Of a stretch of DNA of 52,801 nucleotides, positions 13,356 through 31,784 are shown piece after piece. Origin of the DNA: an uncultured Gemmatimonadales bacterium (GTDB taxonomy: Bacteria > Gemmatimonadota > Gemmatimonadetes > JACCXV01 > JAHWKZ01). The DNA lies in assembly GCA_947259315.1 (NCBI GenBank), contig CAMYLR010000020.1, positions 1 through 52,801 of the forward strand, written 5' to 3'. Positions within the stretch are counted from its first letter, which is position 1. The number at the start of each line of letters is the position of its first letter. The position numbers and the translations under genes are program-made. A model generated the notes under the pieces. The model made no database searches. It saw only the letters and a list, made by a program, of their open reading frames with translations, and had not been told where the DNA came from.

Positions 13356-14447
13356 TTACTGTGTTGGATTTGCTGTGTAGCCGAGGATCGTCAACACGAT
13401 GATGTACGCGATGGCAGCGATACCGAGCCAGATAAACAACCGCTCGCGCTGACCGCGAATGCTGGGCCGATCGAGAAACGGGACGAGCAGCAACAGCACA
13501 CCCGCGATGCCGAACGCGAACACGCCTACAGCTTCGCCTTCCATAAAGAGTATGTGCGCCGGCAGGTACTTGAGGGACTGGAACATGAACATGAAGTACC
13601 ACTCGGGCTTGATACCGACAGGTGCAGGCTGGAACGGATCGGCCTTGACGCCGAGCTCGGCTGGGAAGAGCGCCGCCAGGCTGGCTAGAATCGCCAATGC
13701 TGTCAGCCAACCGATCAGGTCACGCAACAGGAAGTTGGGGAAGAACGGCATCGCGCGCGCTCCCTGCTCACCAGCGTTGACACTATCGGGGGTGCTCATG
13801 CCGTGCTTCTGAACCAAGAACAGGTGAACCGCCAGGAAGACGCCGGCCGCGGCCGGAAGTAAGGCCACGTGGATCGCATAGAACCGCGTCAGCGTCGCCC
13901 CGGAGACGTCCGGGCCACCGCGAAGGAGGCTCAGCATGAACGTCCCGACGATCGGCACCACGCCGATGATCTCAGTCCCGACGCGGGTCGCGAAATAGGC
14001 CAGCTCGTTCCAGGGCAGCAAGTAACCGGTGAAACCAAAGGTGATCGACAACCCGAGCAGGGCGATCCCCGAGATCCACGTGATCTCGCGCGGCGGACGG
14101 TACGCCTTGAGGAGCAGCACGCTGAATAGATGGATGAACACTGTCAGGATCATGAGGTTGGCGGCCCACGCGTGGATCGATCGGATCAGCCACCCGAACT
14201 CCACCTCCGCCATCAAGAACTGGATCGACTCGTACGCTTCCTCGGCGCTCGGTCGATAGTAGAACAACAGCAGCACGCCGGTAGCGACCTGGACCATGAA
14301 GAGGAAGAGCGTCATCCCTCCCAGGTAGTACCAGATCGTATGCCGATGAACCGGAACGTCTTTCTTTGCGGCGATCTTCTGGACGTACGAAAGGCCCAGC
14401 CGAGCGTCCAGCCACGTCCACAGGTCACCGAGCCAGCGCCGATCCAT
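13356..14447 (-). CDS. qcrB: Cytochrome b of a bc/b6f-type complex (b6 and subunit IV fused), canonical
   Basis: Quinol-oxidising membrane subunit with two b haems. The start at 14447 lies two bases after the Rieske stop; the frame is open further upstream but only as overlap. Haem ligands H92/H106 and H193/H208 have the 14- and 15-residue spacings seen in the family. G-Y-L-L-P-W follows the first helices, and the Qo-site P-E-W-Y is intact at 281-284, in the part corresponding to subunit IV. 363 residues with about eight helices. With the adjacent intact Rieske protein it should form a working bifurcating complex. A c1 or f subunit is not seen; the nonaheme cytochrome just upstream may take its place. 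Confidence 0.93.
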
Positions 14448-14449
14448 CC

Positions 14450-14905
14450 CTAGGTGCCCTTGCTCACGACGATCTGATCGGCCAACTCGTTGACGACGAA
14501 CTGTTCCAACGGGCGTGGGGGTGGACCTGAGATGTTGATGCCATTCAGGTCGAAGTGACCGTTGTGACACGCGCACCAGATATGACCGATGTCCTCACGG
14601 TACTGGACGGTACAGTTGAGATGCGTGCAGGTAGCTTCGAACGCGCGCAGCTCTCCTGCTGGGGTGCGTACGAGAATCCCGGCTTTGCTGCCGAACTTGA
14701 AGATCTTGGCCGTGTTGGGCGGGACTTCTTCGGGACCGAACGGCAACCGAACCGTTGTCGCCGCGGATTCAGCGGCTTCCGGCGGAATAAGGTAGCGGCT
14801 AACCGGGAAACCTGTCGCCAACAGGAGCCCTCCGACGCTGGTACCCAACAGCCAGTTTAGAAATTTCCGGCGCGATGGCTCCGGCGACTTTGCTTCATCG
14901 ATCAT
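14450..14905 (-). CDS. qcrA: Rieske [2Fe-2S] protein, intact cluster site
   Basis: Electron carrier from quinol to cytochrome c in a bc-type complex. 151 residues. Tat-like N-terminus [11 protein letters not shown] with a hydrophobic anchor, then the Rieske fold. Cluster box I is C93-T-H95-L-N-C98 and box II C111-A-C113-H114-N-G, so both Cys and both His ligands and the disulfide pair are present; 12 residues separate the boxes. Box II has A and N where P and G are more common. The gene is read from the minus strand just before cytochrome b (two-base gap) and after the nonaheme cytochrome (14-base gap). Confidence 0.94.
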
Positions 14906-14919
14906 GTGCGACCCCCTGT

Positions 14920-16182
14920 CTAAGCACCGTGCTCGATCTCCCGGATCTTCATGACCAACCCTATGATGAGCGCGACGATAATGACGACCGAAGCCACCAA
15001 TCCGAGGCGCCGGAAACGGAGGTCGGCCAGCGCCTCCCGTCCCCGCGACTGAGCTTCGACCGCGATCTCGAGCCCGGCTTCCGTCTCCGTGGTGACAGCG
15101 TCAACATCGAACGAGTGGACGGTCGCCCGAACCTTGATCAACGCATCCTCCGCACCGTTTAGCTCGAACAGCGCCTGGCTAACTTCCATCCCCGCGTTCT
15201 CCGCCCGCAGCAGGAGCGCATGTGCTTCTTCTGTCGTCATGCGCAGCGAGTCGATCGCGCTTCGGAAAGCGACTGCGGTTTGACCACCGGGATCCTCGTC
15301 GGTGTGGCACCGGGCACAGACCGACCCTTCCCCGAGCCCCAGCATATCGTCGTTGGCCGGATGAACATCGTGGTTGTTATGACACGTGGCGCAACCCGGA
15401 CTCCCCAACAGAGCGAAGACCCTCGAGTGCCGGCTCTCGTTGAAGAGATCCGCCATCATGGCGTGACATTGGCCACAAACATTCCCGACCCATGAGACGC
15501 CGGGTGGAGCGGCCCCATGGTTGCCATGACAATCGTTACACGTTGGCGCCGACAAATCGCCTCCGTCGGTGATCATTTGCCAGTGAACGCTGGTTTGATA
15601 ATCGTCCAACTGGTTGGTCGGGAGCCTGTACGGCTCCATGCGCGTCGAGTCTGCGTGACAATCGCCGCACATCTCGGCGACGTTGAGAGGATGGACGGTC
15701 GACCTCGGATCCGACGCCGCTTTGATCGAGTGGGATTGGTGACAGTCGGTGCACGTCGCGACGTTGGGGTCGTCGTTCTCGCGCAAAGCTTGGCCGTGTG
15801 CCGAGGTCTCGTACTCCGCGACTTGATCGACCCGAAGCGCGGGGTTGAAGCGCTTCATGAACTCCGCATTGGAATGGCATCGGCCGCAGAGCGCGGGAAT
15901 CTGCTGTCGTTCGGGGGTGCCGATGTACCCCTTGTCAGGGTCCATCGCCGCTGGTCCGACCACCGTCGCATCGCCGCCGTGACACGCAATGCACCGGAAG
16001 CCTTCGGCCGCGTGAACGTCTTCGGCGTACAGTGTCGCCGGGTCCGCAAGCCGTCCCGCCGGGAGGGCACGGTGACACGTCAGACAAGTGTCTTGCTGTT
16101 CCTGTGCGAGCGCCGAATCCGCCTGTCCGACTGTCATGGCGATGCACGCGAGTATCACGGCGGCTGAGAACCGGCGCCTCAC
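14920..16182 (-). CDS. Nonaheme c-type cytochrome with C-terminal membrane anchor
   Basis: 420 residues with a Sec signal (cleavage probably after A-L-A-Q) and nine CXXCH motifs between about residues 33 and 290. A helical linker and one hydrophobic helix (V-A-S-V-V-I-I-V-A-L-I-I-G-L-V-M) follow near the C-terminus, placing the haem domain in the periplasm. The ATG overlaps the stop of the preceding tetraheme gene by 4 bp. It is a paralogue in architecture of the nonaheme protein at 27183-28424: same haem number, same G-T-P-[ED]-[RK] motif after haem 2, same helical linker and anchor. Both lie beside a cytochrome b / Rieske module, so a role as the electron acceptor of these complexes is likely but inferred. 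Confidence 0.92.
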   Translation of the reverse strand: MRRRFSAAVILACIAMTVGQADSALAQEQQDTCLTCHRALPAGRLADPATLYAEDVHAAEGFRCIACHGGDATVVGPAAMDPDKGYIGTPERQQIPALCGRCHSNAEFMKRFNPALRVDQVAEYETSAHGQALRENDDPNVATCTDCHQSHSIKAASDPRSTVHPLNVAEMCGDCHADSTRMEPYRLPTNQLDDYQTSVHWQMITDGGDLSAPTCNDCHGNHGAAPPGVSWVGNVCGQCHAMMADLFNESRHSRVFALLGSPGCATCHNNHDVHPANDDMLGLGEGSVCARCHTDEDPGGQTAVAFRSAIDSLRMTTEEAHALLLRAENAGMEVSQALFELNGAEDALIKVRATVHSFDVDAVTTETEAGLEIAVEAQSRGREALADLRFRRLGLVASVVIIVALIIGLVMKIREIEHGA

Positions 16183-17369
16183 CGTCGTGGAGGCTGTAGC
16201 TGAAGAAACGCCGCCAGGTTTGCCATCTCCCCGTCAGTAAATGAGGGCCAGCTTGTGGGCGGTCCGTCCTCGCCGTTGACGAGTGCGTGATTCCACAATA
16301 CCGAGATCACTTCCGCTGGTGTACCGAGACCGGCCACCTGACCGAGATCAGGCGCCCGCGTGGCCCCGCGGCCACCCAGTGCGTGGCAGCCGAGGCACCC
16401 TTTTTCGGCGACCAGCGCCCGCCCTCTCTGAGGCGATCCGGCATCGGCGAAGTAACGGACGGAGTAAAGATACGCCACCAGGTCCGCCATCTCCTCGGCG
16501 CTCAACTGTTGAACCGCGATGCGCTCTGACCCCTGGGCCGCGAACATGCGGGGCTGCTTGTTCCACATCGCGGCCGCGAAGTCGACCAGGCTACGCCTCC
16601 TAGCCAGCTCGGGACCGACGTTACCACCCAGACCCCGAGCGCTGTGGCACTGGATACAACCCTTCTCGCCAAACAGGTCGCCCCCGTTTATCGCATCACC
16701 CGGGAGCACGTACAACCCTTCGTCCGTAACCGCTGTCGATGCCATCCGGACGTAACCGATGAGGTCGAGCAGCTCGTCCCCCGTGAAGCTCGGGCGTTCG
16801 AGCCCCCTCGCCTCCAACGCTCGGGTCATGGCCGGACCGTGGTTCCACATCGCGGATGCGATCTGGATCGGCGAGCCAGACGCGGCCACGTAGTCAAGAT
16901 CGGGTCCCACGACCCCTCCCACGCCACCCACCTGGTGGCACAACACGCACCGCTTTCGCGTGAACAGGCTTTGACCTTTCTCGGGGTCCGGCGAGCGGTC
17001 GAAGTAGTTGACGGTGAACAGGAAGGCGATGAGATCTCCGGCTTGTCGACGGCTCAAGCGCGGCCACTCGACCGCAAGCTGTTCCGTCCGCTCGATCATC
17101 CGTGGAACGTGGTTCCACATATCGGCGGCCAAGCCATAAAGGGACCGCGCCTCGCGAGCGCGACCCAAATCCGGCCCCACGGTCCCACCGGTACCGTCGA
17201 TCGCGTGACACTGAGCGCATCGCTTTGCGCCGAAGACCTGCGACCCTGCGATCGCGCTCTGCGTCGGGCCACCGAGTTGCTGAGCGACCGCGGGCAACGG
17301 GATCAACAGAAACAGGCCCACGACTGCCAGTACGACGAGACCCAGACCGGCTCGATCGGTGCGGCTCAT
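16179..17369 (-). CDS. Tetraheme cytochrome made of four class I cytochrome c domains
   Basis: 396 residues from an ATG at 17369, chosen because it is followed at once by a Sec signal (G-L-V-V-L-A-V-V-G-L-F-L-L-I-P-L, ending A-V-A-Q) and sits two bases after the upstream stop; the longer open frame is out of character. Four repeated mono-haem units of about 95 residues each contain one CXXCH (C-A-Q-C-H, C-V-L-C-H, C-I-Q-C-H, C-L-G-C-H), a G-P-D/E-L segment, a W-N-H or W-N-K motif and an L-I/V-A-Y/F helix end. The class I folds differ from the packed multihaem proteins around it, suggesting a flexible periplasmic shuttle, possibly at higher redox potential. Confidence 0.92.
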   Translation of the reverse strand: MSRTDRAGLGLVVLAVVGLFLLIPLPAVAQQLGGPTQSAIAGSQVFGAKRCAQCHAIDGTGGTVGPDLGRAREARSLYGLAADMWNHVPRMIERTEQLAVEWPRLSRRQAGDLIAFLFTVNYFDRSPDPEKGQSLFTRKRCVLCHQVGGVGGVVGPDLDYVAASGSPIQIASAMWNHGPAMTRALEARGLERPSFTGDELLDLIGYVRMASTAVTDEGLYVLPGDAINGGDLFGEKGCIQCHSARGLGGNVGPELARRRSLVDFAAAMWNKQPRMFAAQGSERIAVQQLSAEEMADLVAYLYSVRYFADAGSPQRGRALVAEKGCLGCHALGGRGATRAPDLGQVAGLGTPAEVISVLWNHALVNGEDGPPTSWPSFTDGEMANLAAFLQLQPPRR

Positions 17370-17371
17370 GC

Positions 17372-18760
17372 TCAATCCAGCTGCGAGGCGAAGTGGCAGA
17401 TCGCACATGACATCTCGCTCCGGTCGGCAACACGATCGGGATCGAAATCCGGACCATGCGGGTTGATCCTCCACCCGTTTTTCGCTGAGTGACAGCGCAA
17501 ACAAGAGGTTTGTTGATGGCACGTCACGCAAGCCTCCATATTCTGACGTGCGGCCCGTCCGTGACCGATCAGCCACGAGTCGGTCGCGTCGTGATAAGCG
17601 GCGCCGCTTCGGCCTCCCTGCGCAAACCCAATCCCCTCGTGACAATCGCGACAAAACGCTTCACTCGAGTGACACGTCGAGCACTCGCTCTCCGTGGCGA
17701 ACGCCTCGGCGCCGTGGCGGGCGACGAAGTTAACCGGATGGAAGCCGGGACTCGACGGACCATCATGACAATCCGCGCAATACGTTTCGGTGTGACACGT
17801 ACTGCAGTTCGGGATCCCGGCGACCGCCGCCGAACGGTGTTGGGTCTTGAAATCCGGGGTGTGACCCGGCGGACCGGTGGCAGCAAACATCACACCCTGC
17901 GGCCCATCCGATGTTGGCACCGGCAGCTCGCGAATGACGACCGGTCCCGCATCCCCGTGGCACGTCTCACAACTCGGTTGGGCGTGACAGTTCGCGCAAG
18001 TGGCGATCGCCTCGTTGGCCGGGGCTCCGTGCGTCTCGTTCCAATCGAGCCGGCCGTGGCTCGCGGGCTTGGGCCACCGTCCAGGCCGATCCGCGGTCAA
18101 CGATGCGACGCGCTCGTCCCGTGGCAAATCCTGGATCGCGCTGATCTGGTCAGCGTTCAGATGGCAGCGTTGACAGCTGTCGCGAGTGTGGCAGACTGCA
18201 CACCGCGTCAGGTCTTCCGCTGCACCCGAGGCGTGCGTCGAAAGGAAGCCAGCGACTTCGTGATCGCTCGGCTGTGGGAACAACGCGATCTGATCCACCG
18301 TCAGTGTAGTCGCCTCGCCCAGTGACTGGTGGCACTTGGAGCACGTCACCCCGGCTGCCTGATGCTCCTCCGCGCCGGGTGCGTGGCACGTGAGACACGA
18401 CGGCAGGTTCGCCCGTTGGATCTCCATCGGTGCCGCACCATCCGGCATCTCGTGACACAGCGCGCATGGTGCCGGCGGGTGCTCAGCGTGAGAGAAGTTC
18501 ACGTTGCTCGCCGGTGGCGAGGGGCCGGCCCAATCGACCTCAGGCTGCACCGTTCCGTTGTGACAACCGGCGCATGTCTCAGGGGTTACTGAGTAGACAG
18601 CGGTCGTGTCGCCGCTGGTCACGCCGGAATGGCAGCCTTCACAGCTGGGAAACAAGCCGGCATGCTTGGCGTGCGGGAAGCGGTCAGGCTGTGGAACCGA
18701 AAACAGCGCGCCGCCCCCGATCCCGAGGACCGCAACAAGGAGAAGTGCACTCTTTTTCAT
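17372..18760 (-). CDS. Hexadecaheme (16-heme) periplasmic c-type cytochrome
   Basis: 462 residues, Sec signal at the N-terminus, sixteen CXXCH motifs and no second membrane helix. Five of them come as close pairs, CXXCH-x4/5-CXXCH (for example C-A-V-C-H-T-R-D-S-C-Q-R-C-H), the doubled-CXXCH arrangement. Many extra histidines lie ahead of the motifs (F-S-H-A-E-H, F-P-H-A-K-H) and can be sixth ligands. It overlaps the upstream beta-barrel gene by 4 bp, so the two are translationally coupled. By analogy with porin-cytochrome conduits, where a periplasmic multihaem protein plugs a barrel, it may be the plug; this is inference. It would be large compared with MtrA-type decahaem plugs. Confidence 0.92.
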   Translation of the reverse strand: MKKSALLLVAVLGIGGGALFSVPQPDRFPHAKHAGLFPSCEGCHSGVTSGDTTAVYSVTPETCAGCHNGTVQPEVDWAGPSPPASNVNFSHAEHPPAPCALCHEMPDGAAPMEIQRANLPSCLTCHAPGAEEHQAAGVTCSKCHQSLGEATTLTVDQIALFPQPSDHEVAGFLSTHASGAAEDLTRCAVCHTRDSCQRCHLNADQISAIQDLPRDERVASLTADRPGRWPKPASHGRLDWNETHGAPANEAIATCANCHAQPSCETCHGDAGPVVIRELPVPTSDGPQGVMFAATGPPGHTPDFKTQHRSAAVAGIPNCSTCHTETYCADCHDGPSSPGFHPVNFVARHGAEAFATESECSTCHSSEAFCRDCHEGIGFAQGGRSGAAYHDATDSWLIGHGRAARQNMEACVTCHQQTSCLRCHSAKNGWRINPHGPDFDPDRVADRSEMSCAICHFASQLD

Positions 18761-20211
18761 CGGTAGCCTCCTTCCCCACCGCCTATGTTACTTCCAAAAC
18801 GATAGGCGAGGCCTATGTGGCCGCGTGTCTGGGTCCAGTCAGAAACTCGCGCCCGATCGAACGAGAGGCTATAGCCGCTCAGACTTCCGGTGAGTGAAAA
18901 GTCTCCGATTCGCCATGCGCCTTCAACACCACCTCCGGACGTGACCTGCTCGCCGAGCCGGAACTCACTGAACGTCTGAGTCGACGAGCCGCGAGCGGCG
19001 AGATACGTGCCCGGTGCGAACTCGTAGCCGACCGTCAGATCGCCGCCGTATCGCGCGGCGCCAGAGCCGCGTTCGGCACGATAGATCCCGTCGGCGAACC
19101 ATCCCCTGTGCTCGAACCGTGCGCGGCCGTGGGCCCGCCACCCGTCTTCCTCGAAGCCCAGGAACTCGGCCCCGGCGTCGGTTTCTTCGTAGCTCCTGTA
19201 CGCACCTCCACCCTCGAGGTTGAGCATCGTTCCCGGCACGCTCCACAGGACCGTCCCACCGCCTTCAGTGTAACCGACCGGCATGAAGGCACCCCAGATC
19301 GTCCAAAGCTCGAAGTATGGTTCGTAGTGACGCGCGTAGCCGGCTACCCGCACGCCCGCGGCGATCGGCGCGCTGGCCCGCAGCTGAAGCTCGTTGAACT
19401 CGTCGTACGCAAAGTCATAGTCGGCCGAGAAATCCACCGTGACCCGATCGACCAACGCCCGCGCGTCGAACGCCATCCGTTCGGTGTAGAGCGCGGCCCG
19501 ATCGGTGCGCATCTCGCGCTGGTACGTGAAGGTCCCGGAAACGGTTTGTCCCAATCGCGCGTTGACGTCGAACCCGGCTATCCGAGCGCGTTTGTCGGGC
19601 GCGAAATCGTCGGCGTCCTCTAGCAGATCACCGTCACGCGTGGCGTTTAGACCACGCGCTAGACCCCAGCCCCAGAACGCTTCGACCCGCACCGGTTCCA
19701 GACCACGCCACAACACCGACCCACCGTCGAAGTTGTAGTAGCCCAGGCCCGACGTTCGAGCGATCCGACCGCCACGAAAACGAAAGTCCGCGCGGTCGTA
19801 GGTGAGGTAGGCGGTAACCGCGTCGAGCTCCTGGCTGCTGCGCGGCCAGAAACTGTCGGTCCCGTAGCGCCCACGCAGATGGACGTTCGCTGATAGACCG
19901 CGAATCCCGGGCCAAGCGATCAGGCTGAGATCTTGGGTGACGACCGAGATCGATTCCTCTTCGTCTACTGAAGCGAACCAACGGCAGAACTCCCCCGGTA
20001 TGCAGCTCACGATCGTCCCGTCGTCGAGCACGCGACGAATGCCGTCGCCAGCCACCACTCCTTCGGGGAGGCTGTCGCGTTCCAGACCGCGCAGTTCGAG
20101 GAAGCTTCCGGCGACTCGAAACTCGCCGCGATACCCCTGGGCCATGAGGCATTCGGGACCCAGCAGCACCGCCAGGGCGAGGGCAACCCCTGCCAACCAG
20201 TGAACTTTCAT
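18757..20211 (-). CDS. Outer-membrane beta-barrel protein of the cytochrome operon
   Basis: 484 residues. Sec signal ending near A-Q-G, then strands of alternating aromatic and polar residues with Tyr/Trp/Arg and acidic turns (for example F-R-G-G-R-I-A-R-T-S, G-Y-E-F-A-P-G-T-Y-L-A-A-R-G), to a last strand G-H-I-G-L-A-Y-R-F-G. The C-terminus adds a short Gly-rich tail rather than ending on the usual aromatic residue. There is no homology I can name. Tight coupling to the 16-heme gene suggests a porin-like sheath for electron transfer. Ribosome site AGGAGAGG directly before the ATG. Only two cysteines occur in the mature part (I-V-S-C-I-P-G-E-F-C-R), so it binds no haem c itself. Confidence 0.82.
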   Translation of the reverse strand: MKVHWLAGVALALAVLLGPECLMAQGYRGEFRVAGSFLELRGLERDSLPEGVVAGDGIRRVLDDGTIVSCIPGEFCRWFASVDEEESISVVTQDLSLIAWPGIRGLSANVHLRGRYGTDSFWPRSSQELDAVTAYLTYDRADFRFRGGRIARTSGLGYYNFDGGSVLWRGLEPVRVEAFWGWGLARGLNATRDGDLLEDADDFAPDKRARIAGFDVNARLGQTVSGTFTYQREMRTDRAALYTERMAFDARALVDRVTVDFSADYDFAYDEFNELQLRASAPIAAGVRVAGYARHYEPYFELWTIWGAFMPVGYTEGGGTVLWSVPGTMLNLEGGGAYRSYEETDAGAEFLGFEEDGWRAHGRARFEHRGWFADGIYRAERGSGAARYGGDLTVGYEFAPGTYLAARGSSTQTFSEFRLGEQVTSGGGVEGAWRIGDFSLTGSLSGYSLSFDRARVSDWTQTRGHIGLAYRFGSNIGGGEGGYR

Positions 20212-20220
20212 CCTCTCCTC

Positions 20221-22998
20221 CTAGCGGTAACCGAACAGCATTGTAAGAACGATTAGAAAGATCAGCGTCAGCCCGACCCCGAGAGCGAAGAAACCGAAGA
20301 TCTTGAATCCCCGCTCGACCTTTTCGGGGTATGGATCGACCAGCCGCTCCTCCAGCTTACCTGTAGCTACGAGCTCTTCATACTCCTTCGGTTTGTCGTG
20401 CTTTAGCTCATCGATCGAGACACGTCCAGTGAAGATGACCGGGTCCATCGGGAACTTGTCCAACCGAAAGTGCGTGTTGAAAAAGTGTACGGTGAAGATG
20501 AATGCCACCGCCAGCAGAGCTTCATCGCTGTGGATGATCGTCGCGATGTTGATCGATTTGCCTGGCAGAACGTAGGTGAACAACTCGGGGAACCATAGGA
20601 TCAGACCCGATATCCCGATCACTATCATGCCCCAGAAGACCGCGAAGTAGTCGAACTTCTCCCAGTACGTGTACCGCCCGTACCGTGGCCGTGGCCCGAA
20701 CCCGAGAAACCACTTGATCGACCCGATGAGCTCGGTAAGGTCGTTTCGGTTGAACAACATGGAGTCAGCGCCAAAGATGAGCTGCCGCCAACTCCTGCCC
20801 GAGCGCTCTTTTTGGCGTCTCAAGTCCCACAGATGAACTACGAAGATCCCTATGAGGACGATCGCTCCGATGCGGTGCAGAACCCCCGTAGTGACAAAGC
20901 CACCGATCATCGACGCCGTGAATTGGGCCCATCCGGTGTAGGAAAACTTTAGCACCATCCCTGTGATCGCGAGCGTAAAGAAGCTCAGCAACATGACCAT
21001 GTGGAGCATGCGCTGGAAGTAAGTGAACCGCCGATAGACTTTGCCATCTCTCGCTGGCTTCGGACGTTTCCACATGCCGGGGGTACGCCATAGCCGATAC
21101 ATCCATGCCAGTACGTGAAACATCGCGAACGTCAACGTGCCGACGAGCAGCGTCGTCATCGCCCAGAAGGTCCAGAATAGGAACGGGTACTTGTCCGCGT
21201 CGTGGTGAGTCGCGTGCGTGAGGTAGCCAGCGAATCGGCGGTGCGCGCCCTCATGGCATTGACTGCACGTCTCGACGATGTTGCTTCGGCTCAGCATCGA
21301 CCCGAGATCCTCGATCGGCAAGATGTTGTGCGTGCCGTGGCAGTCGTAGCACTTCGCCGCACCTGCATCTCCCAGACGAGACACCTTGCCGTGGTAAGTC
21401 TCGAAGAACGTTTCTGACTCGTCGATATGGCACCGCCCACATTGATCCATCATCAGCAGACGGAAGTCGGCTCGGTCCGTTCGGCTGATCGTGTGTGAGG
21501 TGTGACAATCCTTGCAGGTCGGAGGTTGCTGCTCCGAATCCGTTACCTCTACGGTTGCGTGAACACTGTTCTCGAACTCCTCCTGAATCCCGTGGTGACA
21601 CGTGCCGCACGTGTCGGGGATGTTGTCCGAGTGAACTGTCGATGTCGGGTCATCGGCGGGCTGCTCGCCGTGGGCGGTGTGACAGTTGGTGCACATAGCG
21701 GTCACGACAAGACCGCTCTCCAGCAACCCCTTTCCGTGGGTGCTCATCTCGTAGCTCTGAAGAATGTCTGGATCATCGATACCGATTCGCACCGCCGCCG
21801 CTTCTCCCTGGCGATGACACTGCGCACAGAGCTCGGGGACGTTGCGTGGAAACGTCGGCGACGCGGGTTGCGACTTGTCTTGCGTGGCGTGCTTGGCGTG
21901 ACAGTCCAGACAAACCGGTGCGTCGGGATCGCCGCGCGCCGCCAACGTTCCGTGGACGCTCGAATCGTACTGCCCGACCTGTTCGGCGTGGCAGACGCCG
22001 CAATCGACGTCTGAGACCACCGTTTCACACGGCCGGCTCAGCGATGTCGTGACCTCGGTGTGGCATTGAGCGCAGGCAGTCCCCGAATGGTCGGTGGCGT
22101 TGTACGTCTGCTCGTCCACGTAGAGCGAGATCGTCTGCCCGTTCTTCTCCATCGCCAGCTCGGTGTCGCCGTGACAGGCCAGACAATCCGCGTTGGCCGA
22201 GCCGGCGGCATAGAAAACGCGTCGGACCTTGTGGGGCGAGTGACAATCCGGACACGCCGGGATCTTGTCCGGTTCCGTCCTCCAGAGATGGCCCTCGATC
22301 ACCTGACGGTGAACCTGCTCGATCTGCGCGTGGCATCGGGTACACATCCGGGACACGTTGTCCTCGTGGATGCTCGATCGCCGGTCGGTGTGGGGCAGGA
22401 TCCTGTGTGCGGTGTGACAGGAAGTACAGACAGCGGTCACCGTAAGACCTTGCCGGAACAACCCCTCGCCGTGCATCGACTGCGAGTAGTTCTCGAGGAT
22501 CCTCTCCTCCGGGATATCTCGCATGCGCGAGACGGGCGTGCCCTCGTGGTGACACTCACCGCAGAGGTACGGGATGTTCATGACGCCCGTCGGCGATCCT
22601 GGCGTCGTGCTCCGTTGCATGTCGTGACGCCCGTGACAATCGACACAGCTCGGCGCCAGCGGATCCCCTCTCGCGGCCGCTTGCCCATGAAGCGACGAGT
22701 CGTGCTGCGACACCTGACGGCCGTGGCAGCTGGAGCAGTTCGCCGCGGCTCGCTCTTCGGGGTGTGGAAACGCCATCCCCTGATGGCAAGCGACGCACTG
22801 CACTTCGGTCGCTCCGTGAACCGACCTTTCGTACACCCGGCGATTGACGACCAGGCGAGCGCCGTCGTTTCGTGAGGCGAACATCGCCGCGTTCTCGTGA
22901 CATGCGAGACAGGTGGCGTTCTCTTGGGCCGACAGCGTCGTGGCTGTGCCCAGCGTGGCGACGCCGAACATAAACGCGAGGGCTACCACGACGCGCAT
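20221..22998 (-). CDS. 19-heme cytochrome c fused to a formate-dehydrogenase-gamma-like cytochrome b (CbcL-like architecture)
   Basis: 925 residues from ATG 22998, which has a GGAGGT ribosome site and starts a Sec signal. Nineteen CXXCH motifs lie in residues 30-580, then about six membrane helices (600-925) with histidines in Q-R-M-L-H, V-L-H-R-I, V-V-H-L-W and I-I-H-S-D-E-A-L-L that fit b-haem ligation. The c part is an internal duplication: residues 30-223 and 272-468 each hold seven haems in the same order, with shared Q-V-x-Q-x-D-S-S-x-H-G and T-A-x-C-T-x-C-H-T-A-H. The b part matches the separate cytochrome b at 23001-23861. The fusion recalls Geobacter CbcL, a quinol-to-periplasm oxidoreductase, but with about twice its haems. 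Likely an inner-membrane quinol oxidase. Confidence 0.93.
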   Translation of the reverse strand: MRVVVALAFMFGVATLGTATTLSAQENATCLACHENAAMFASRNDGARLVVNRRVYERSVHGATEVQCVACHQGMAFPHPEERAAANCSSCHGRQVSQHDSSLHGQAAARGDPLAPSCVDCHGRHDMQRSTTPGSPTGVMNIPYLCGECHHEGTPVSRMRDIPEERILENYSQSMHGEGLFRQGLTVTAVCTSCHTAHRILPHTDRRSSIHEDNVSRMCTRCHAQIEQVHRQVIEGHLWRTEPDKIPACPDCHSPHKVRRVFYAAGSANADCLACHGDTELAMEKNGQTISLYVDEQTYNATDHSGTACAQCHTEVTTSLSRPCETVVSDVDCGVCHAEQVGQYDSSVHGTLAARGDPDAPVCLDCHAKHATQDKSQPASPTFPRNVPELCAQCHRQGEAAAVRIGIDDPDILQSYEMSTHGKGLLESGLVVTAMCTNCHTAHGEQPADDPTSTVHSDNIPDTCGTCHHGIQEEFENSVHATVEVTDSEQQPPTCKDCHTSHTISRTDRADFRLLMMDQCGRCHIDESETFFETYHGKVSRLGDAGAAKCYDCHGTHNILPIEDLGSMLSRSNIVETCSQCHEGAHRRFAGYLTHATHHDADKYPFLFWTFWAMTTLLVGTLTFAMFHVLAWMYRLWRTPGMWKRPKPARDGKVYRRFTYFQRMLHMVMLLSFFTLAITGMVLKFSYTGWAQFTASMIGGFVTTGVLHRIGAIVLIGIFVVHLWDLRRQKERSGRSWRQLIFGADSMLFNRNDLTELIGSIKWFLGFGPRPRYGRYTYWEKFDYFAVFWGMIVIGISGLILWFPELFTYVLPGKSINIATIIHSDEALLAVAFIFTVHFFNTHFRLDKFPMDPVIFTGRVSIDELKHDKPKEYEELVATGKLEERLVDPYPEKVERGFKIFGFFALGVGLTLIFLIVLTMLFGYR

Positions 22999-23000
22999 CG

Positions 23001-23861
23001 CTACCTCCATCCCCCCTGGATCAGGGCCCAGATGATGAGCCCGATCAACAGGATGCCGAGGCTGAGAGCGATCAACCCGAGCGTGACCGACCACAGGTAG
23101 GCGGCTCGAGACGGCGGCGGGGCGATCAACTCTCCGAGCCGTCCCTCCCGACTCAACCGCTCGTACTGCAGCGGGTGTTCCTCTTTCATGTAATCCAGCG
23201 TCGCACGGCCGGTGAACATGACGACATCCACCGGGAACTTCTCAGGACGGAGGTTCACGTTGAAGAAGTGAATCGTGAAGATGATGCCAGTCGCGAGCAG
23301 CGCCTCGATGCCGTGGATGATCGTCGCCACGTTGAACATCCAACCCGGCAGAACCTTCGAGAAGAACACCGGGAACCACAGGACCAAGCCCGAGCCGCCG
23401 ATCACAGTGACCCCCCAGAACTCGCCCCAGTAGTCGAGCTTGTCCATGTAGTTGAATCGGTCGAACTGGGGTCGTGGACCCTTCCCGGCAAACCACTTGA
23501 ACGTGTCCCGGATGTCCTGGAGGTCCCTGGGCTGTCCAACCATCGAATCGGGACCCCAGAAGAAGCGCTTCTTGTTGGTGCTCTTGGCGATTCGGTACGT
23601 CAGATGACCGATGTGGATGAAGAAGTACCCAAAGGTGATCACGGCACAGATACGGTGAATGAACCCCGCCGCTTGAAACCCGCCGACCATTCGGATGAGC
23701 GTTCTCGCCCATGGCATGTGCGAATAGAGCAGCGGCGTGCCGGTAATCACGAGCCCGAAGAACGACACGATCACCATCGCGTGGAGAACCCGCTCGATCC
23801 CCGAGAACCGCCAGATGTAGGGCCCCGCTCCGCGATCAGAGGACGCGAGCTTACGTCCCAT
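23001..23861 (-). CDS. Formate-dehydrogenase-gamma/HydC-like cytochrome b
   Basis: 286 residues from ATG 23861, which has a GAGGGA ribosome site and overlaps the 11-heme gene by 11 bp; a TTG at 23885 is a poorer alternative. Membrane diheme-b protein with histidines in E-R-V-L-H-A-M, F-I-H-R-I, F-F-I-H-I-G-H and [10 protein letters not shown]. The motif F-P-x-D-x-V-x-F-T-G-R near the last cytosolic loop is shared with the b domain of the neighbouring 19-heme fusion. Together with the 11-heme cytochrome it should form a two-subunit quinol:cytochrome c oxidoreductase, the split version of the fused protein and similar in layout to Geobacter CbcBA. Its stop lies two bases before the next start. 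Confidence 0.92.
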
Positions 23862-25174: not shown

Positions 25175-27175
25175 TCAACTGGTCTCCTCACGCGCCCCGG
25201 CCAAGGCCGGAATCTGGTGGCACTGAGTGCACTGTAGCGGCGCGTTGTGCTCGATCCGATCGGTGTGACAAACGGTGCAGACCTGCCGACTCCATTCGCC
25301 GACGCTCGATATCTCGTCCCCGTGACAGACCGCGCACTGGCCGTGCATAGCCGGCGTGTGTTTCTCGATCGTCCCCTGCTGATGACAACCGAGACAGGTC
25401 GCTTCGGGCTGATGGTGCTGTTCGTGGCACGTCGTACAATCGAGATCGCTTGCGCCCATCGCGGGCGGGGTGTGACATGTAGCGCAGGCGAAACCCGCAC
25501 CGCGATGGACGTCGTGCGAAAAATTGCCGGTCGGATGTGCGATTACCGACGACGGAGCTCCACCCGGCCCGGAGTGGCAACGGGCACAGTTCATCGGCCG
25601 GATCTGCGGATGGTGACACGTGTTGCATGTTTCTCGTGAGTCGATCGTCGTACCCCCGTGTTCATCCAGGGATGTGTGGCAATCGGCGCAACCCAACCCC
25701 GCGGTAGTGACGTGGGGCCGGTGATCGAACCGCGCACCTTGGAACTGCACCTGCAGATCCTCGGCTCCCAGGTGGCAGCGCAGACAGACGTTTCTCCTGA
25801 TCCGGGTCCCGAGATCGACGTTGTCGACCGAGTAGGGGAGCCCGCCGGATTCGATCGCCTCACGCACCAGATCAACAGCCGACGCCAGCAACTCGTCGGC
25901 ATAGGCGATGTTGTGGGCGCCCTTGCCGATGCGAACGAACTCGACGTTCTCGCTCGCCAAGCCGAGTAGGCTGTCGACGGTAGCGCGGGTGCGGACCGGA
26001 CTGGAGCTGGCTCTTCTCTGCGCTCCGGCAACGACCGCGCCGACTCGACTGACGCGTTCTTCCATCTCGGTTTGCCACGACGGCAGGATGTTGGCGTAGC
26101 GGATGCCGTGACACGACAAACACGCCGCCTCGCCAGCCTCCTGAACCTGATCGTGGCCTTCCATCTCGCTCGGCAGCCCGTGGCACCCCTGGCACGAGAC
26201 ACGAGCCAGGTACATGTAGCTCGGCATGTTCTCGGTCGCGTGACCACCGGTGCCTGCGTACATACGCCGCTGCAAATCGTGAACCCCCTGATGGCAGCTC
26301 GCACAGTCGAGGTCGAAGGTCGACGCGAGCGAAGTGACGCGGTGCTCGATCCCCATGTGACACTGGGCGCACTCGATGTTGTGATCGGCGAGGTGGGTGC
26401 GGTGCACGAAATCAACGTTCTCGTATTGATCGATCCGTTCGGGCTCGTTGTGACACGTGAAGCAACGGGCTTGATTGGCCTCCCCCGACCCGCTCGTCAC
26501 CTCTTCATGACAACCCACGCAAGAGGTGAGCTCTTCGACGTACCGGGGATGGTCAACCACAAAGCCGACATCGGAGACCAAGCGGGGGGGATCGACGTGG
26601 CAGCCGGTGCATCCGGCGATCGGCTCCCCCAGCGGCTGATCCTTGAAATGGCACAGGTAACACGTATCCGCGGTTACCGCGACGTGATCGCCCTGGACGA
26701 TCTGAGAATGACATGCCGTGCAGCGCAACTGCTTTCCGCGACGCAACTCCCCGAGATGTTGTGCGTGGTTGAAGCTGATCCCCCGATAGTCGAGCTCCGA
26801 TTCCAGTTTTCGCTCGACGTGGCACCCCGAGCGCAGGCAGGAAGCGTCCTCGATCTCCGCCCAAGGCTTCATGCCGTACGTACCGGTGACGTACTTCACG
26901 ACCTGATTGGCGGCCTGGAACTTCCCCATCGCTTCGGCTTTGACACCCGGCGCGTAGTGGCACTCGATGCAAGCCACGTCGTTGTGCGATGACGTGACCC
27001 ACGAATCGTAGTACGGCTCCATGATGTGGCAGTTGAGACAGAAGCTCGGCTGAGCGCTGTACTCGACGAACCCGACGGCCCCGACGGCGATGACGATCAC
27101 CGCCAGAATCGAAACTTGAATGGCGATTCTCATCGGTCGTGAGAAGCGCGCGAGCAGGTTGTAGAGGGTTCGCAT
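25175..27175 (-). CDS. NapC/NirT-like membrane-anchored cytochrome with 21 CXXCH and one CX4CH motif
   Basis: 666 residues. An uncleaved N-terminal helix (I-L-A-V-I-V-I-A-V-G-A-V-G-F) is followed by the NapC/NrfH-type start C46-L-N-C-H-I-M-E-P-Y-Y-x-x-W-x-x-S-S-H and a second haem, C-I-E-C-H. A wide-spaced C113-L-R-S-G-C-H119 comes third, then nineteen more CXXCH motifs, so up to 22 c haems. A Ser/Arg-rich haem-free linker at about residues 375-455 splits the haem groups. NapC-type anchors oxidise menaquinol, and Geobacter ImcH is a related quinol oxidase with far fewer haems. This suggests a quinol-oxidising anchor fused to a long periplasmic wire, perhaps reaching the outer membrane. Neighbours overlap or are within 34 bp. 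Confidence 0.92.
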   Translation of the reverse strand: MRTLYNLLARFSRPMRIAIQVSILAVIVIAVGAVGFVEYSAQPSFCLNCHIMEPYYDSWVTSSHNDVACIECHYAPGVKAEAMGKFQAANQVVKYVTGTYGMKPWAEIEDASCLRSGCHVERKLESELDYRGISFNHAQHLGELRRGKQLRCTACHSQIVQGDHVAVTADTCYLCHFKDQPLGEPIAGCTGCHVDPPRLVSDVGFVVDHPRYVEELTSCVGCHEEVTSGSGEANQARCFTCHNEPERIDQYENVDFVHRTHLADHNIECAQCHMGIEHRVTSLASTFDLDCASCHQGVHDLQRRMYAGTGGHATENMPSYMYLARVSCQGCHGLPSEMEGHDQVQEAGEAACLSCHGIRYANILPSWQTEMEERVSRVGAVVAGAQRRASSSPVRTRATVDSLLGLASENVEFVRIGKGAHNIAYADELLASAVDLVREAIESGGLPYSVDNVDLGTRIRRNVCLRCHLGAEDLQVQFQGARFDHRPHVTTAGLGCADCHTSLDEHGGTTIDSRETCNTCHHPQIRPMNCARCHSGPGGAPSSVIAHPTGNFSHDVHRGAGFACATCHTPPAMGASDLDCTTCHEQHHQPEATCLGCHQQGTIEKHTPAMHGQCAVCHGDEISSVGEWSRQVCTVCHTDRIEHNAPLQCTQCHQIPALAGAREETS

Positions 27176-27182
27176 CGCGCAG

Positions 27183-28424
27183 TTACTCCTTCAATCGCCG
27201 CAGTTTGAACCAACCCATTACGATCGCCGACAGTGTGAGAAACCACACCGGGATCAGCAGGAGCTTGTGCTCCCACGTTCGCTCAGCACTGCCCTCCGCT
27301 GTGGCTCGAATGTCCCGCGAGATCGACCCCACCCGCCGGCTCAGGTCTCCGACCCGTTCGACGTCCAGCCCGTGCTGGAACTCGGCGATCTGGAGGTAGT
27401 CTGTAAGCGCCGTCTGATACCGGAACCGGAGATCGCTGACCTGCCAGCCGGCGGCGACCAGCTCCTCGATCGCTTCGTCGGCTGCGTGCAGATCTCTCTC
27501 GGCGTCGACGATCAACTCCTCGGCTTCCACGCCGAGCTGCGCCGCGCGACTGTCGGGATCGTGGCACTCGACGCAAGTCTCGGCGACCGCATCCGGCGCA
27601 ACGCGCTCCGTCTCGTGGTTGCTGTGACACGCAGTGCATCCGGGCAGGTCACCGGCGCGGGCGGCCGCGCCGTGAGGACCCGCGTCGAACGCCTTCCGCA
27701 CGAGCACGTGACACTGGCCACACACGTTCGCGATCTCGGTAACCTGCGGGGGCATAGCGGCATGGGAGCCATGACAACCCACGCAGCTCGGTGACGCGAA
27801 GTTCTTGCGTTCGAACAGGCCGACGCCGTGGGCGCTGGCGCGGTACAGGTCGAACTGATCCGTCGAGAGACCGTACTTCGCCATCAGACTCTCGTCCTGA
27901 TGACAACCCGCGCATGTGCCAGAGATATTCGTCGGGTGGACGCGGCTGCGAGCGTTATCGGGGGTCAGGATCGTGTGTGCATCGTGGCAGCTCGTGCACG
28001 TCGGCGCGTCGGTGTTGCGTTCCCCGAGCAGCAGTTGGCCGTGGCGGCTGGTGCGAAACTCGGCCACTTGGCCGACTTGGAGGCCGTACTGCCGCATCCG
28101 ATCGGGGTCTGAGTGGCACGAACCGCAAAGCTGAACGATACCGATCTTGTCTGGTGTTCCCACGTAGTCGCCCGTGTGAGCCGCGGCGGTCTCCAAGGCT
28201 GCGGGATCACCACCGTGGCAATCATGGCACGCGATGCCGCGCTCGGAGTGGATACCCTCTACAAACGCCCGGCGCATGTCGGCATGACAAACGACGCAGC
28301 CGTAGACTGGGTCGGCTTGGACTGCCTGCAGCTGAGCGCTTTGGCCGGTGGCTGCGTAGCCGCCTCGTGGGCCACCGACAACAGCGACGATGGCTACCAT
28401 CGCGGTGAGCGCGCCACTCGTCAT
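27183..28424 (-). CDS. Nonaheme c-type cytochrome with C-terminal anchor, partner of the divergent cytochrome b
   Basis: 413 residues, Sec signal ending in G-Y-A-A-T, nine CXXCH motifs, a helical stretch (residues about 300-375) and a terminal helix (L-L-L-I-P-V-W-F-L-T-L-S-A-I-V-M-G-W). ATG start overlaps the cytochrome b stop by 4 bp, so the two are coupled. Same architecture as the nonaheme protein at 14920-16182. The second motif is C-H-D-C-H, giving an extra His beside the haem. As the attached Rieske-like protein lacks its cluster, this cytochrome is the obvious electron acceptor for the b haems; that is inference. Confidence 0.91.
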   Translation of the reverse strand: MTSGALTAMVAIVAVVGGPRGGYAATGQSAQLQAVQADPVYGCVVCHADMRRAFVEGIHSERGIACHDCHGGDPAALETAAAHTGDYVGTPDKIGIVQLCGSCHSDPDRMRQYGLQVGQVAEFRTSRHGQLLLGERNTDAPTCTSCHDAHTILTPDNARSRVHPTNISGTCAGCHQDESLMAKYGLSTDQFDLYRASAHGVGLFERKNFASPSCVGCHGSHAAMPPQVTEIANVCGQCHVLVRKAFDAGPHGAAARAGDLPGCTACHSNHETERVAPDAVAETCVECHDPDSRAAQLGVEAEELIVDAERDLHAADEAIEELVAAGWQVSDLRFRYQTALTDYLQIAEFQHGLDVERVGDLSRRVGSISRDIRATAEGSAERTWEHKLLLIPVWFLTLSAIVMGWFKLRRLKE

Positions 28425-29686
28425 TGAGATCCCCCGCTCTCGGCTGGTCCTGGCTGCACCGGACTCGGGCCGAGCTCGCGTAGCGGCGAGCCCGCCTCCG
28501 GCGGCTCACCGACCTCAGCCGGAGTTACCGACCGGACGTCCGGCGCGGCGAATCGGAGCTGGTGTCCGACCAACCAAAGAACCAAGAACCCGGCGAAAAA
28601 GACGATCCCGAGCACGATTACCGGTCGGTGACGCCGCTCTGGGTGGCGGTCAAACAACGGGATGAGCGCCATCGCTAACCCGAGGAGCGCAAAGAGCGTG
28701 ATCCCCCACGGGCCGAAGAACCGCACCATCGCGAGTGTCACGTCTATCACCACCCACGTTGACACGAGCTCGCTCGGGGGCGCGACCGAAGAAGCGGGCT
28801 CGCCGATCGGCCGCGGGAACAGCGTCGCCAAGGTGATCACAACGGCGAGGACGACGACCGAAACCAGGAATAACCGCAGCAAGTGATGCGGAAAGAAGGG
28901 ATCGCCTAGCGCCTCGCTTCCGGTGGCGCCTCGTGGCGGCGCGACGCCGTGCGTGCGGATCATCCGAAAGTGGAAGAGAAGCAGGGCGAAGGCGATCCAC
29001 GGCAGGATGATCACGTGGATCGCAAAGAAGCGGCTCAGCGTGGCACCTGACACGAACGCGTCGCCGGTCAACGCCGTCACGATTACACCGCCTAGCACAG
29101 GCAGTTTCTCGGCGGTGTCCAAAAACTCGGTCACCGTCCAGTACGCCCACTGGTCCCACGGCAGGAGGTACCCCGATGCGCCAAACGCCAGCACGACGAA
29201 AAGCAGCAACAGACCGATCAGCCAGCTCGTCTCGCGCGGCGGCTTGTACGCGCCGTCGAAGAAGACTCGCGCCATATGGGCGAGCACGACGATCACGATC
29301 AAGGTCGCCGACCAGACGTGGACGTCGCGGACCAACCAGCCAAAGGTGACACCGGTCACGATGTGCTGGATCGAGCCGTAGGCTTCCCCCGACGAAGGGC
29401 GATAGTGGAGCGACAGCAGCACGCCGGTAACGACCAGGACCATGAACAGCAGGTACGCGATGCCACCCAACGCGTGACGCCACCCGACGTGCGCCGGCAG
29501 GCGGCGTGCCAGCGCTTTGCGCAACGCTTCATCGATCGGCAGGCTGCGATCGATAGGCCCGTAGAGGAGGCCCAAGAACCGCGGAGCGGTGAGGAAGCTG
29601 GCGTCGGTGCTGGCCTTGAGGTCAGCCCGGAAGCGGCGACGCCAGCGAGAGACCACCTCCCGCGTGCGATCGATCACGCTAGCCAT
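28421..29686 (-). CDS. Cytochrome b (bc/b6f type) lacking the PEWY motif
   Basis: 421 residues with a longer N-terminus and a Pro/Gly-rich C-terminal tail. All four b-haem histidines are kept: H123/H137 and H224/H239, with the same 14/15 spacing as the canonical paralogue at 13356-14447. G-Y-L-L-P-W and K-P-P-R-E are also present. The Qo-site P-E-W-Y is not: at the equivalent place (about 303-313) the protein reads P-P-S-E-L-V-S-T-W-V-V. The Glu and Tyr needed for quinol oxidation at Qo are therefore absent or moved. Overlaps the Rieske-like gene by 8 bp and the nonaheme gene by 4 bp. Probably a non-bifurcating b subunit passing electrons to the nonaheme protein. Confidence 0.9.
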   Translation of the reverse strand: MASVIDRTREVVSRWRRRFRADLKASTDASFLTAPRFLGLLYGPIDRSLPIDEALRKALARRLPAHVGWRHALGGIAYLLFMVLVVTGVLLSLHYRPSSGEAYGSIQHIVTGVTFGWLVRDVHVWSATLIVIVVLAHMARVFFDGAYKPPRETSWLIGLLLLFVVLAFGASGYLLPWDQWAYWTVTEFLDTAEKLPVLGGVIVTALTGDAFVSGATLSRFFAIHVIILPWIAFALLLFHFRMIRTHGVAPPRGATGSEALGDPFFPHHLLRLFLVSVVVLAVVITLATLFPRPIGEPASSVAPPSELVSTWVVIDVTLAMVRFFGPWGITLFALLGLAMALIPLFDRHPERRHRPVIVLGIVFFAGFLVLWLVGHQLRFAAPDVRSVTPAEVGEPPEAGSPLRELGPSPVQPGPAESGGSQ

Positions 29687-30164
29687 GGGTCAGGTAGACG
29701 ACGCCGTCTCGAACGAAAACCGAGTAGCGTCGTAACGATTGGGTCGTCAGGCCGGTGACGACGTTCCCACGCAGGTCGTAGACGATGTAGTTGCAGGGTG
29801 AGACGACGCGTTGCGACTCATCGTCCCAACGCAGGATGCATCCGTCAGTCGGCGAGGTGCCTTCGAGGGCGTAGTACTCGTCCTCGCCGCGGCGCACGAC
29901 GAGAATGACCTGCTCCCCCCAGTTCTGGACGCGACTTGTCCCAATACCAAAGGCGTCTTCGCTTGCGACGGGAATCGCCGACTGGACCTCGGGGATCGTC
30001 AGCGGACGGGTAGAGAAAACGTACAGCGTGCCGCCGAGAACCCAGCCGGTCACGATCAGCACACCGATCCCGACCAGCAGCAACTCCTCGAACCCGAGCC
30101 ATGGTTTCCGTCTCGGTTGTCGGGTCGCTGTGGAGTCGGTCTCGACTGCGGTCATGGTGCCCAT
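29679..30164 (-). CDS. Rieske-fold protein that has lost all [2Fe-2S] ligands
   Basis: 161 residues: charged N-terminus, one membrane helix (about 27-50), then a beta-rich domain. Aligned with the intact Rieske protein at 14450-14905, box I C-T-H-L-N-C becomes S104-P-T106-D-G-C109 and box II C-A-C-H becomes S122-P-C124-N125. Both boxes are 12 residues apart in both proteins. Thus the ligands changed Cys to Ser, His to Thr, Cys to Ser, His to Asn, while the two disulfide cysteines (109, 124) remain. The G-N-V-V and V-Y-L-T strands that close the Rieske fold are still visible. The reading frame is intact and coupled to cytochrome b, so it looks like a retained structural subunit and not a pseudogene. 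Confidence 0.8.
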   Translation of the reverse strand: MGTMTAVETDSTATRQPRRKPWLGFEELLLVGIGVLIVTGWVLGGTLYVFSTRPLTIPEVQSAIPVASEDAFGIGTSRVQNWGEQVILVVRRGEDEYYALEGTSPTDGCILRWDDESQRVVSPCNYIVYDLRGNVVTGLTTQSLRRYSVFVRDGVVYLTHG

Positions 30165-30275: not shown

Positions 30276-31784
30276 CTACCTCCCCACTCTGGCCTTCACC
30301 ATCTGTAGCTCCGCGTCCCAATCTACGACCCCCAGGCTGTTCATGACGCCGTACTCCTCTTCCACGACGTCGATGCTGGCGATCAGCAGCGCTTCCATCA
30401 AGAACGGGTTGTGAGCACTCGATCCGATGACACTGAAGGTACCGAAATCCTCGTTACCGAAGAGCGCCAATGCGTGATTGAAGAACGCCCCCTCAGCGAC
30501 CGTAAACGTCGGATTGGTGGGATCGATCTCCCCGCCTGGATCCTCGCCGTTCGGGTCAACTTCCTCGAGCAGCTCCTCCAGCTCGTCGGCCAGCCCCTGG
30601 ATCCGGGTCGACGCCGCCGTGAGCGCCGAGAACGCCGCCTGCTGGTCGCCGTGACAAGGGCCACCGGTGCACGACTCGTACGTGCGCGCCGGTGGAGCCA
30701 GGTCGCAATCGGTCTCGAACCCCTCCGGGATCCCGCTCGCATCCACGCACGGGATCGGCCGGAACAGGTGGCCCGTCGCGCTAAACGCGAAGCCACCTGT
30801 CGCCGCATCGGTGACGGTGAACTCCGACAGGTGGCACGTCGCGCACAGCTCCGGGTTGGCGTCGCTACCGTGCGAACCGCGGATCTGACCCAGTCCGATA
30901 TCGGCGCCCGGCGGGAACCAACCGGCCTCGCCGATCAGCAATGCTGACTCGGGGGAGTGTGGCTCCAACCCGTGTGACGAGTTGGGATCGGGAGCGGTCC
31001 GCCGATTGTGGCACTGTGAGCAGAGGTGCGTCTCGATCGACGTCGTATTGACCGGTAACCTGAGCTGGTGCTCGTTGTTGTCAGCGTGCGGGTCGTGGCA
31101 TACCACACACACCACCGCCAACGGTTCCGAGTCGAACTTCTCGGTGTAGTCGGCGTTCGAACCGAACCGCTCGATCGAGGTCTGCCCCCTATGACACGGC
31201 GCACACGACTCACGGGCGGCGGCGAAGCCGACCACCCCGGAATGCGGTGACGCCTCCCACTCTTCGACAAACGGGTGGTGGGTGCCCTGGTGGCACTCGC
31301 CACAACCGGTGTCGAGGTCCAACCCAACCGACGCTTGAGCAATTGGCTGGCTCGCGTCCGGGTTGTTGGCGTGCGCCTCACCCGGGCCGTGACAGTTCTC
31401 GCACTGCACGTCGTGATAGCGCGAGTCCTGGGTCGTCGCCCAGCCGCCGTCGGTCTCGGTGAGGTTGCCGTTTTGGCTCACCGCGTGGCAGTTCTCACAG
31501 AAGGGCTGCGCGCTGCCGCTACCGATCAACGATTGCCAAGCGTCCGCGTGAGCGGTGTCCTCCCACTCCGACTGGACTCCGATGTGGCAGTTACCACAGA
31601 CGGTTAGGTTAGCCGCTTCCTCGTCGTAACCTAAGAAGCCGACCGCCATTGCCGGTGGGTCTTCGAAGAACGGTCGTTCAACCTCCACGATCACCTCGTC
31701 CTCACACACCGACCCAAGCATCGAGCCGAGCAGGACGAGCGCCGCGGGGAGAACGAGGAGTCGTCTTACATCGATTCTTGTCAT
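30276..31784 (-). CDS. Exported nonaheme-type cytochrome (8 CXXCH plus one CX4CH), first gene of the array
   Basis: 502 residues with an N-terminal hydrophobic signal (L-L-V-L-P-A-A-L-V-L-L-G) near a cysteine (G-S-V-C27-E-D). Val at -1 is a poor lipobox, so lipidation is doubtful. Eight CXXCH motifs, from C-G-N-C-H to C-A-T-C-H, plus a late C-T-G-G-P-C-H near residue 371. W-E-x-T/S-x-H motifs after haems 1 and 4 recall cytochrome c554-like proteins. The last 120 residues are haem-free, acidic and helical, and may be a binding or oligomerisation domain. The gene has its own promoter with the CCCTAC direct repeats and is followed by a hairpin, so it may be expressed at a different level from the genes behind it. 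Surface or periplasmic electron carrier. Confidence 0.9.
   Translation of the reverse strand: MTRIDVRRLLVLPAALVLLGSMLGSVCEDEVIVEVERPFFEDPPAMAVGFLGYDEEAANLTVCGNCHIGVQSEWEDTAHADAWQSLIGSGSAQPFCENCHAVSQNGNLTETDGGWATTQDSRYHDVQCENCHGPGEAHANNPDASQPIAQASVGLDLDTGCGECHQGTHHPFVEEWEASPHSGVVGFAAARESCAPCHRGQTSIERFGSNADYTEKFDSEPLAVVCVVCHDPHADNNEHQLRLPVNTTSIETHLCSQCHNRRTAPDPNSSHGLEPHSPESALLIGEAGWFPPGADIGLGQIRGSHGSDANPELCATCHLSEFTVTDAATGGFAFSATGHLFRPIPCVDASGIPEGFETDCDLAPPARTYESCTGGPCHGDQQAAFSALTAASTRIQGLADELEELLEEVDPNGEDPGGEIDPTNPTFTVAEGAFFNHALALFGNEDFGTFSVIGSSAHNPFLMEALLIASIDVVEEEYGVMNSLGVVDWDAELQMVKARVGR

Follow-up and report, generated by a model that had tools for sequence, protein, structure and literature searches.

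Results

The pseudo-Rieske gene and its neighbours

The window analysed here is a 52,801-nucleotide stretch of DNA from an uncultured Gemmatimonadales bacterium whose genome comprises 2.4 Mb in 33 contigs. At positions 29679-30164 of the minus strand lies a reading frame, open over 161 amino acids, encoding what we term the pseudo-Rieske subunit (psR), with a transmembrane (TM) helix at residues 25-51, a hinge and a predicted Rieske-fold head. The true start is probably M4 (30155), which is the start in the sister genome. The ligand-box sequence reads ALEGTSPTDGCILRWDDESQRVVSPCNYIVYDLRGNVVTGL. An intact paralogous Rieske protein, with the ligand boxes CTHLNC...CACH, is encoded 15 kb away (14450-14905, minus strand) and served as the comparator. 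Against it, the four ligand positions of psR are changed from Cys to Ser104, His to Thr106, Cys to Ser122 and His to Asn125, just as the original prediction had read them. The disulfide pair Cys109/Cys124 is retained and the 12-residue spacing between the boxes is identical, both as claimed, and Asp107 lies at the tip. The frame was also said to be intact and coupled to cytochrome b, which agrees with the open frame and with the position of the cytochrome b ATG inside the end of psR, an 8-nt overlap (ATGGCTAG). One wording fell short of the full change: besides the four ligands, a proline loop and a Tat motif have gone as well.

The partner cytochrome b (28421-29686, minus strand, 421 aa) is a fused b6/subunit IV protein with heme-b ligands H123, H137, H224 and H239, the residues STWV (309-312) in place of the Qo motif, and Arg292 in the ef loop. 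Its stop is overlapped by 4 nt by the start of a membrane-anchored nonaheme cytochrome c with nine CXXCH motifs (27183-28424, minus strand, 413 aa), and the last conserved member of the operon is a 21-CXXCH cytochrome c with a NapC/NrfH-like N-terminal domain (25175-27175, minus strand, 666 aa). The genes for psR, cytochrome b, nonaheme and 21-CXXCH cytochrome lie side by side in nearly all loci whose contig extends far enough. A further multiheme cytochrome c with eight CXXCH motifs lies upstream (30276-31784, minus strand); its linkage is looser, with roughly half of the loci having it next to psR.

The intact Rieske protein belongs to a canonical complex in the same genome (13356-16182) that has the same three subunit types, comprising in addition a cytochrome b with the Qo motif PEWY (13356-14576, minus strand, the real start being inside the ORF) and a nonaheme cytochrome c with nine CXXCH motifs (14920-16182, minus strand). 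Unlike the psR complex, it has its CTHLNC/CACH ligands, Tat motif (SRRKFL), proline loop (GPPPRPL) and PEWY intact. Between the canonical nonaheme cytochrome and a 16-CXXCH cytochrome (17372-18760), positions 16179-17654 (minus strand) encode several tandem class I cytochrome c domains with four CXXCH motifs. Adjoining the 16-CXXCH gene is a 484-aa protein with a signal-like N terminus (18757-20211, minus strand), kept in several psR loci. It is possibly the outer-membrane barrel of a porin-cytochrome conduit; it gave no Pfam match and no PDB sequence match, and its AF2 model reached a pLDDT of only 29.5. Positions 20221-23094 (minus strand) encode a 957-aa protein in which a 19-CXXCH multiheme region is fused to a membrane domain resembling cytochrome b561/formate dehydrogenase gamma.

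Predicted fold of psR

An AF2 model of psR was built from 20 orthologs and has a mean pLDDT of 79, rising to about 90 in the head, with a single TM helix at residues 25-51. In a Foldseek search its best match among solved structures was the Rieske domain of Chlorobaculum tepidum (8hn2), with a target-normalised TM-score of 0.76 and an rmsd of 2.1 Å, and a psR sequence profile run against Rieske chains returned the same best match (E=7e-13). NirD structures also appeared in the fold search, matching less well than 8hn2. The best Pfam match is the NirD-type family Rieske_2, just over the cut-off at E=3e-6, and psR matches cytochrome b6f Rieske models at 2e-6. Superposition on Rieske domains had been proposed as a check, and the predicted fold is indeed that of a Rieske protein; on the evidence of the model, psR is a membrane-anchored member of this fold.

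Orthologs, distribution and selection

Searching 395 Gemmatimonadota genomes with psR gave a bimodal result, with 26 matches at E<1e-29 followed by ordinary Rieske proteins, whose E-values start at about 1e-8. Together with four from a species collection this gave 30 distinct orthologs from at least six families, and the named relatives are Gemmatimonadota MAGs. The species collection was scanned with a subset alignment, A2, whose patterns are narrow, so that it is a weak test of absence outside Gemmatimonadota. A close relative of the window's canonical Rieske protein occurs in 18 of the 26 psR genomes, where the psR complex is therefore an addition and not a replacement.

None of the 30 orthologs has the two Cys and two His of a Rieske [2Fe-2S] protein; all four are missing in every case, and none was found to keep ligands elsewhere in the chain. 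The first ligand position is Ser in 23, Ala in six and Gly in one, the box-2 Cys has become Ser in all 30, and the former His positions are never His and drift freely. The expectation of homologues with the same four substitutions was thus borne out as regards ligand loss, while the exact combination Ser, Thr, Ser, Asn is confined to the window and its closest relative. The disulfide pair of high-potential Rieske proteins is present throughout, as Cys109 and Cys124 (30/30, the residues being read and the bond predicted), and the spacing is 12 in all.

The most conserved region of psR is the former cluster tip. Mean majority identity is 79% and 77% in the two former cluster loops, compared with 65% in the base and 52% in the TM helix, and few positions are as poorly conserved as the two that once held His (21% and 24%). 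Asp107, at the tip, is found in 30/30 orthologs at a site where canonical proteins have Leu, Ala or others, and the four residues Asp107, Cys109, Ser122 and Cys124 are invariant in the 29 full-length sequences. The dN/dS ratio of psR is 0.12-0.23 over seven pairs; for three neighbouring operon genes it is 0.08-0.11 (one pair). Judged from the alignment, psR behaves like a protein released from its cluster in which another constraint holds the tip.

Coordinated losses in psR and its partner

A Tat twin-arginine motif precedes the TM helix in 28 of 29 canonical Rieske proteins (the 29th is masked by N) and in one of 30 psR proteins, that of locus L078, where it is a marginal RRGLF; the psR of the window has none. 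The TM helix of psR is also more hydrophobic than its canonical counterpart. The proline loop GPPPxPL has become GLTTxPL or similar in all 29 orthologs that are readable there. Rieske proteins are reported to depend on Sec-Tat or Tat for export (PMC5449189, PMC3623810); since it is the cluster-bearing protein that Tat exports, loss of the motif fits an apo-protein.

The partner cytochromes b have changed in step. All 23 in our alignment keep the four heme-b histidines, and all 23 lack the PEWY motif, the position being S-[ST]-W-[VIL] in nearly all and the surrounding stretch LVSTW(V/I)V in most. In that alignment, the intact complexes have PEWY, PDWY, PEWF, PQWY, TDWY or APWY (one is unreadable), and the canonical paralogous cytochromes b retain PEWY. 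The Qo motif has been described as common to all cytochrome bc complexes (PMC9162462). This type of cytochrome b occurs in 25 of the 395 genomes and psR in all 25; in the 26th psR genome the contig breaks off. The ef loop, at which the tip would dock, carries Arg292 in 23/23 partners, and no canonical sequence has Arg at that column. There are also new acidic residues, Asp315 (21/23) just after the former PEWY and Glu187 (19/23) in the cd1 region, where canonical cytochromes b have hydrophobic or variable residues. The P-side site may therefore have been reshaped to serve some quinol chemistry instead of being given up. The top curated match of the partner is NCBIfam ExtP, the cytochrome b of the selenite/tellurite Ext operon, at 206.5 bits, below the cut-off of 290. 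Taken together, the dN/dS values, the loss of the Tat motif and the loss of the partner's Qo motif support the view, put forward in the original prediction, of a role retained without a [2Fe-2S] cluster.

Discussion

A bc-type complex that may no longer bifurcate

That psR has lost the usual [2Fe-2S] ligands is strongly supported by the sequences; it presumably binds no cluster and plays a structural role. The reading we favour, and consider rather probable, is that a duplicated Rieske/cytochrome b complex gave up Q-cycle bifurcation, with psR becoming a locked cap and the b hemes linking quinone linearly to the multiheme cytochromes. The psR head would stop shuttling and instead be docked permanently, through its conserved tip, on the P-side face of cytochrome b, where Asp107 possibly pairs with Arg292. 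This salt bridge is offered as a hypothesis, drawn from one clade and one partly similar case, and from few evolutionary events. The head would cap or brace what was once the Qo pocket, and likewise the site at which the nonaheme cytochrome c attaches. A single electron path could then connect an N-side quinone site, heme bH, heme bL, the nonaheme cytochrome, the 21-heme NapC/NrfH-like cytochrome and a periplasmic multiheme chain. Electrons might take this path in either direction, of which inward flow to quinone would be the energy-conserving one; the route and the cap role are inferred.

Other explanations deserve consideration. Quinol oxidation could persist at a remodelled P-side site, with Asp315 and Glu187 accepting protons and a c-type heme of the co-encoded nonaheme cytochrome replacing the Rieske cluster as second acceptor. 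The conservation of both acids at sites otherwise hydrophobic or variable speaks for this, as does the multiheme cytochrome itself. However, both acids are absent from L079, the most divergent member, and Asp315 from L077, the Qo motif is erased, and the usual substitutions PDWY, APWY and PEWF go with an intact Rieske protein; we know of no Rieske-free bifurcation at Qo, and we regard this alternative as unlikely, if worth keeping in mind. It is also conceivable that the pocket of psR itself has been refitted, Asp107-Gly-Cys109 and Ser122-Pro-Cys124 forming a redox-active dithiol/disulfide switch or another metal site, by which electron transfer between heme bL and the nonaheme cytochrome would be gated. 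The invariance of the four residues, in what is the best conserved part of the protein, would suit such a site, and were it real the complex would be a redox-controlled successor of complex III. But Cys109 and Cys124 sit at the ordinary structural disulfide positions of high-potential Rieske proteins, psR has acquired neither a histidine nor a further cysteine, and it has lost the Tat motif that is typical of proteins exported with their cofactors, so that both the refitting and the gating appear improbable.

Two further accounts fare worse still. The Rieske_2 match and the NirD structures in the fold search might be taken to mean that psR is just another Rieske domain of the clusterless NirD kind and has nothing to do with cytochrome bc complexes. 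We rejected membership of Rieske_2/NirD, where the partner would be NirB: psR has an N-terminal TM anchor and hinge, its gene overlaps that of a cytochrome b, its disulfide is kept, and by profile and fold alike its best solved-structure match is a respiratory Rieske protein. There is very little chance that this account is right. Less credible again is that psR is a decaying pseudogene whose frame is open by chance. It has lost its catalytic residues, as such a gene might, but its occurrence in at least six families, the dN/dS and conservation across orthologs, the invariant tip, the kept operon and the complete co-occurrence with cytochrome b led us to reject it.

Comparison with known systems

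A clusterless Rieske domain is in itself not new, given that NirD, the small subunit of NADH-nitrite reductase, has a Rieske fold without cluster ligands. Whereas NirD belongs, as a soluble subunit, to a cytoplasmic enzyme, psR has a membrane anchor, retains the disulfide and is partnered by a cytochrome b that has no Qo motif. Closer in composition are the Rieske/cytochrome b complexes of the anammox bacterium Kuenenia (Kuste4569-4574 and Kustd1480-1485; PMC12954380), which share a Rieske-fold subunit, a b6-type cytochrome b with a subunit IV part, and, in the place of cytochrome f or c1, a multiheme cytochrome c anchored in the membrane. The Kuenenia Rieske proteins, however, bind [2Fe-2S] clusters with measured potentials (PMC12954380), whereas in the psR complex neither the cluster ligands nor the proline loop, Tat motif or Qo motif survive. 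In the Geobacter Cbc/Ext-type complexes and in CbcL/ImcH, quinol oxidases/quinone reductases of extracellular electron transfer, hemes likewise link the quinone pool and the periplasm, and quinone enzymes joining a cytochrome b to multihemes are already known in the CbcL type (PMC6295460). The psR partner differs in being a cytochrome b of the bc type whose Qo site has degenerated, and the CbcL/ImcH paper mentions no Rieske subunit (PMC6295460). In the literature searched, which included few subscription papers, we found neither a clusterless Rieske protein in a cytochrome bc complex nor a bc-type complex without both halves of bifurcation.

Bifurcation in complex III has two halves, the Rieske cluster and the Qo motif, and this lineage has lost both together and kept the fold, the b hemes and the entire operon under selection. 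It thereby indicates that complex III can outlive its defining reaction. In some Gemmatimonadota the complex seems to have been converted into an electron conduit of another kind, which points to a quinone-multiheme route so far unrecognised in these uncultured organisms. The psR complex also offers a direct test of the roles of the Rieske head beyond electron transfer, such as docking, sealing Qo and assembling partner cytochromes.

Relatives and possible origin

The same operon order is found in another phylum. One such locus (L166) has a fully canonical Rieske protein and PEWY; another (L099:6884-8641) has three of the four ligands (CTHDGC...CPCD), the Qo variant PQWY and a retained Tat motif, a sequence that possibly reflects either an Asp-ligated cluster or partial loss. 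L099 is an attractive candidate for a genuine ancestor or intermediate. In the cytochrome b tree, however, the psR-linked clade groups with APWY-type complexes that have intact Rieske proteins, at 100/100 support. L099 and L103 are placed elsewhere with weak support, and neither L099 nor L166 falls beside the psR clade in this tree. As the branches are long, L099 may be a parallel partial loss. The APWY-type complexes differ from the psR operon in gene order. Closest in the tree are four Gemmatimonadota cytochromes b (L027, L029, L031 and L055) with the Qo motif APWY, in which the Glu of PEWY is replaced by Pro, each beside an intact Rieske protein. In a further locus (L165:5608-10882, genome G680) nonaheme and 26-heme genes are present and a transposase-like ORF occupies the place of the Rieske and cytochrome b genes; it is flanked, as is L099, by heme-biosynthesis-like genes (HemA, CobA/HemD-like).
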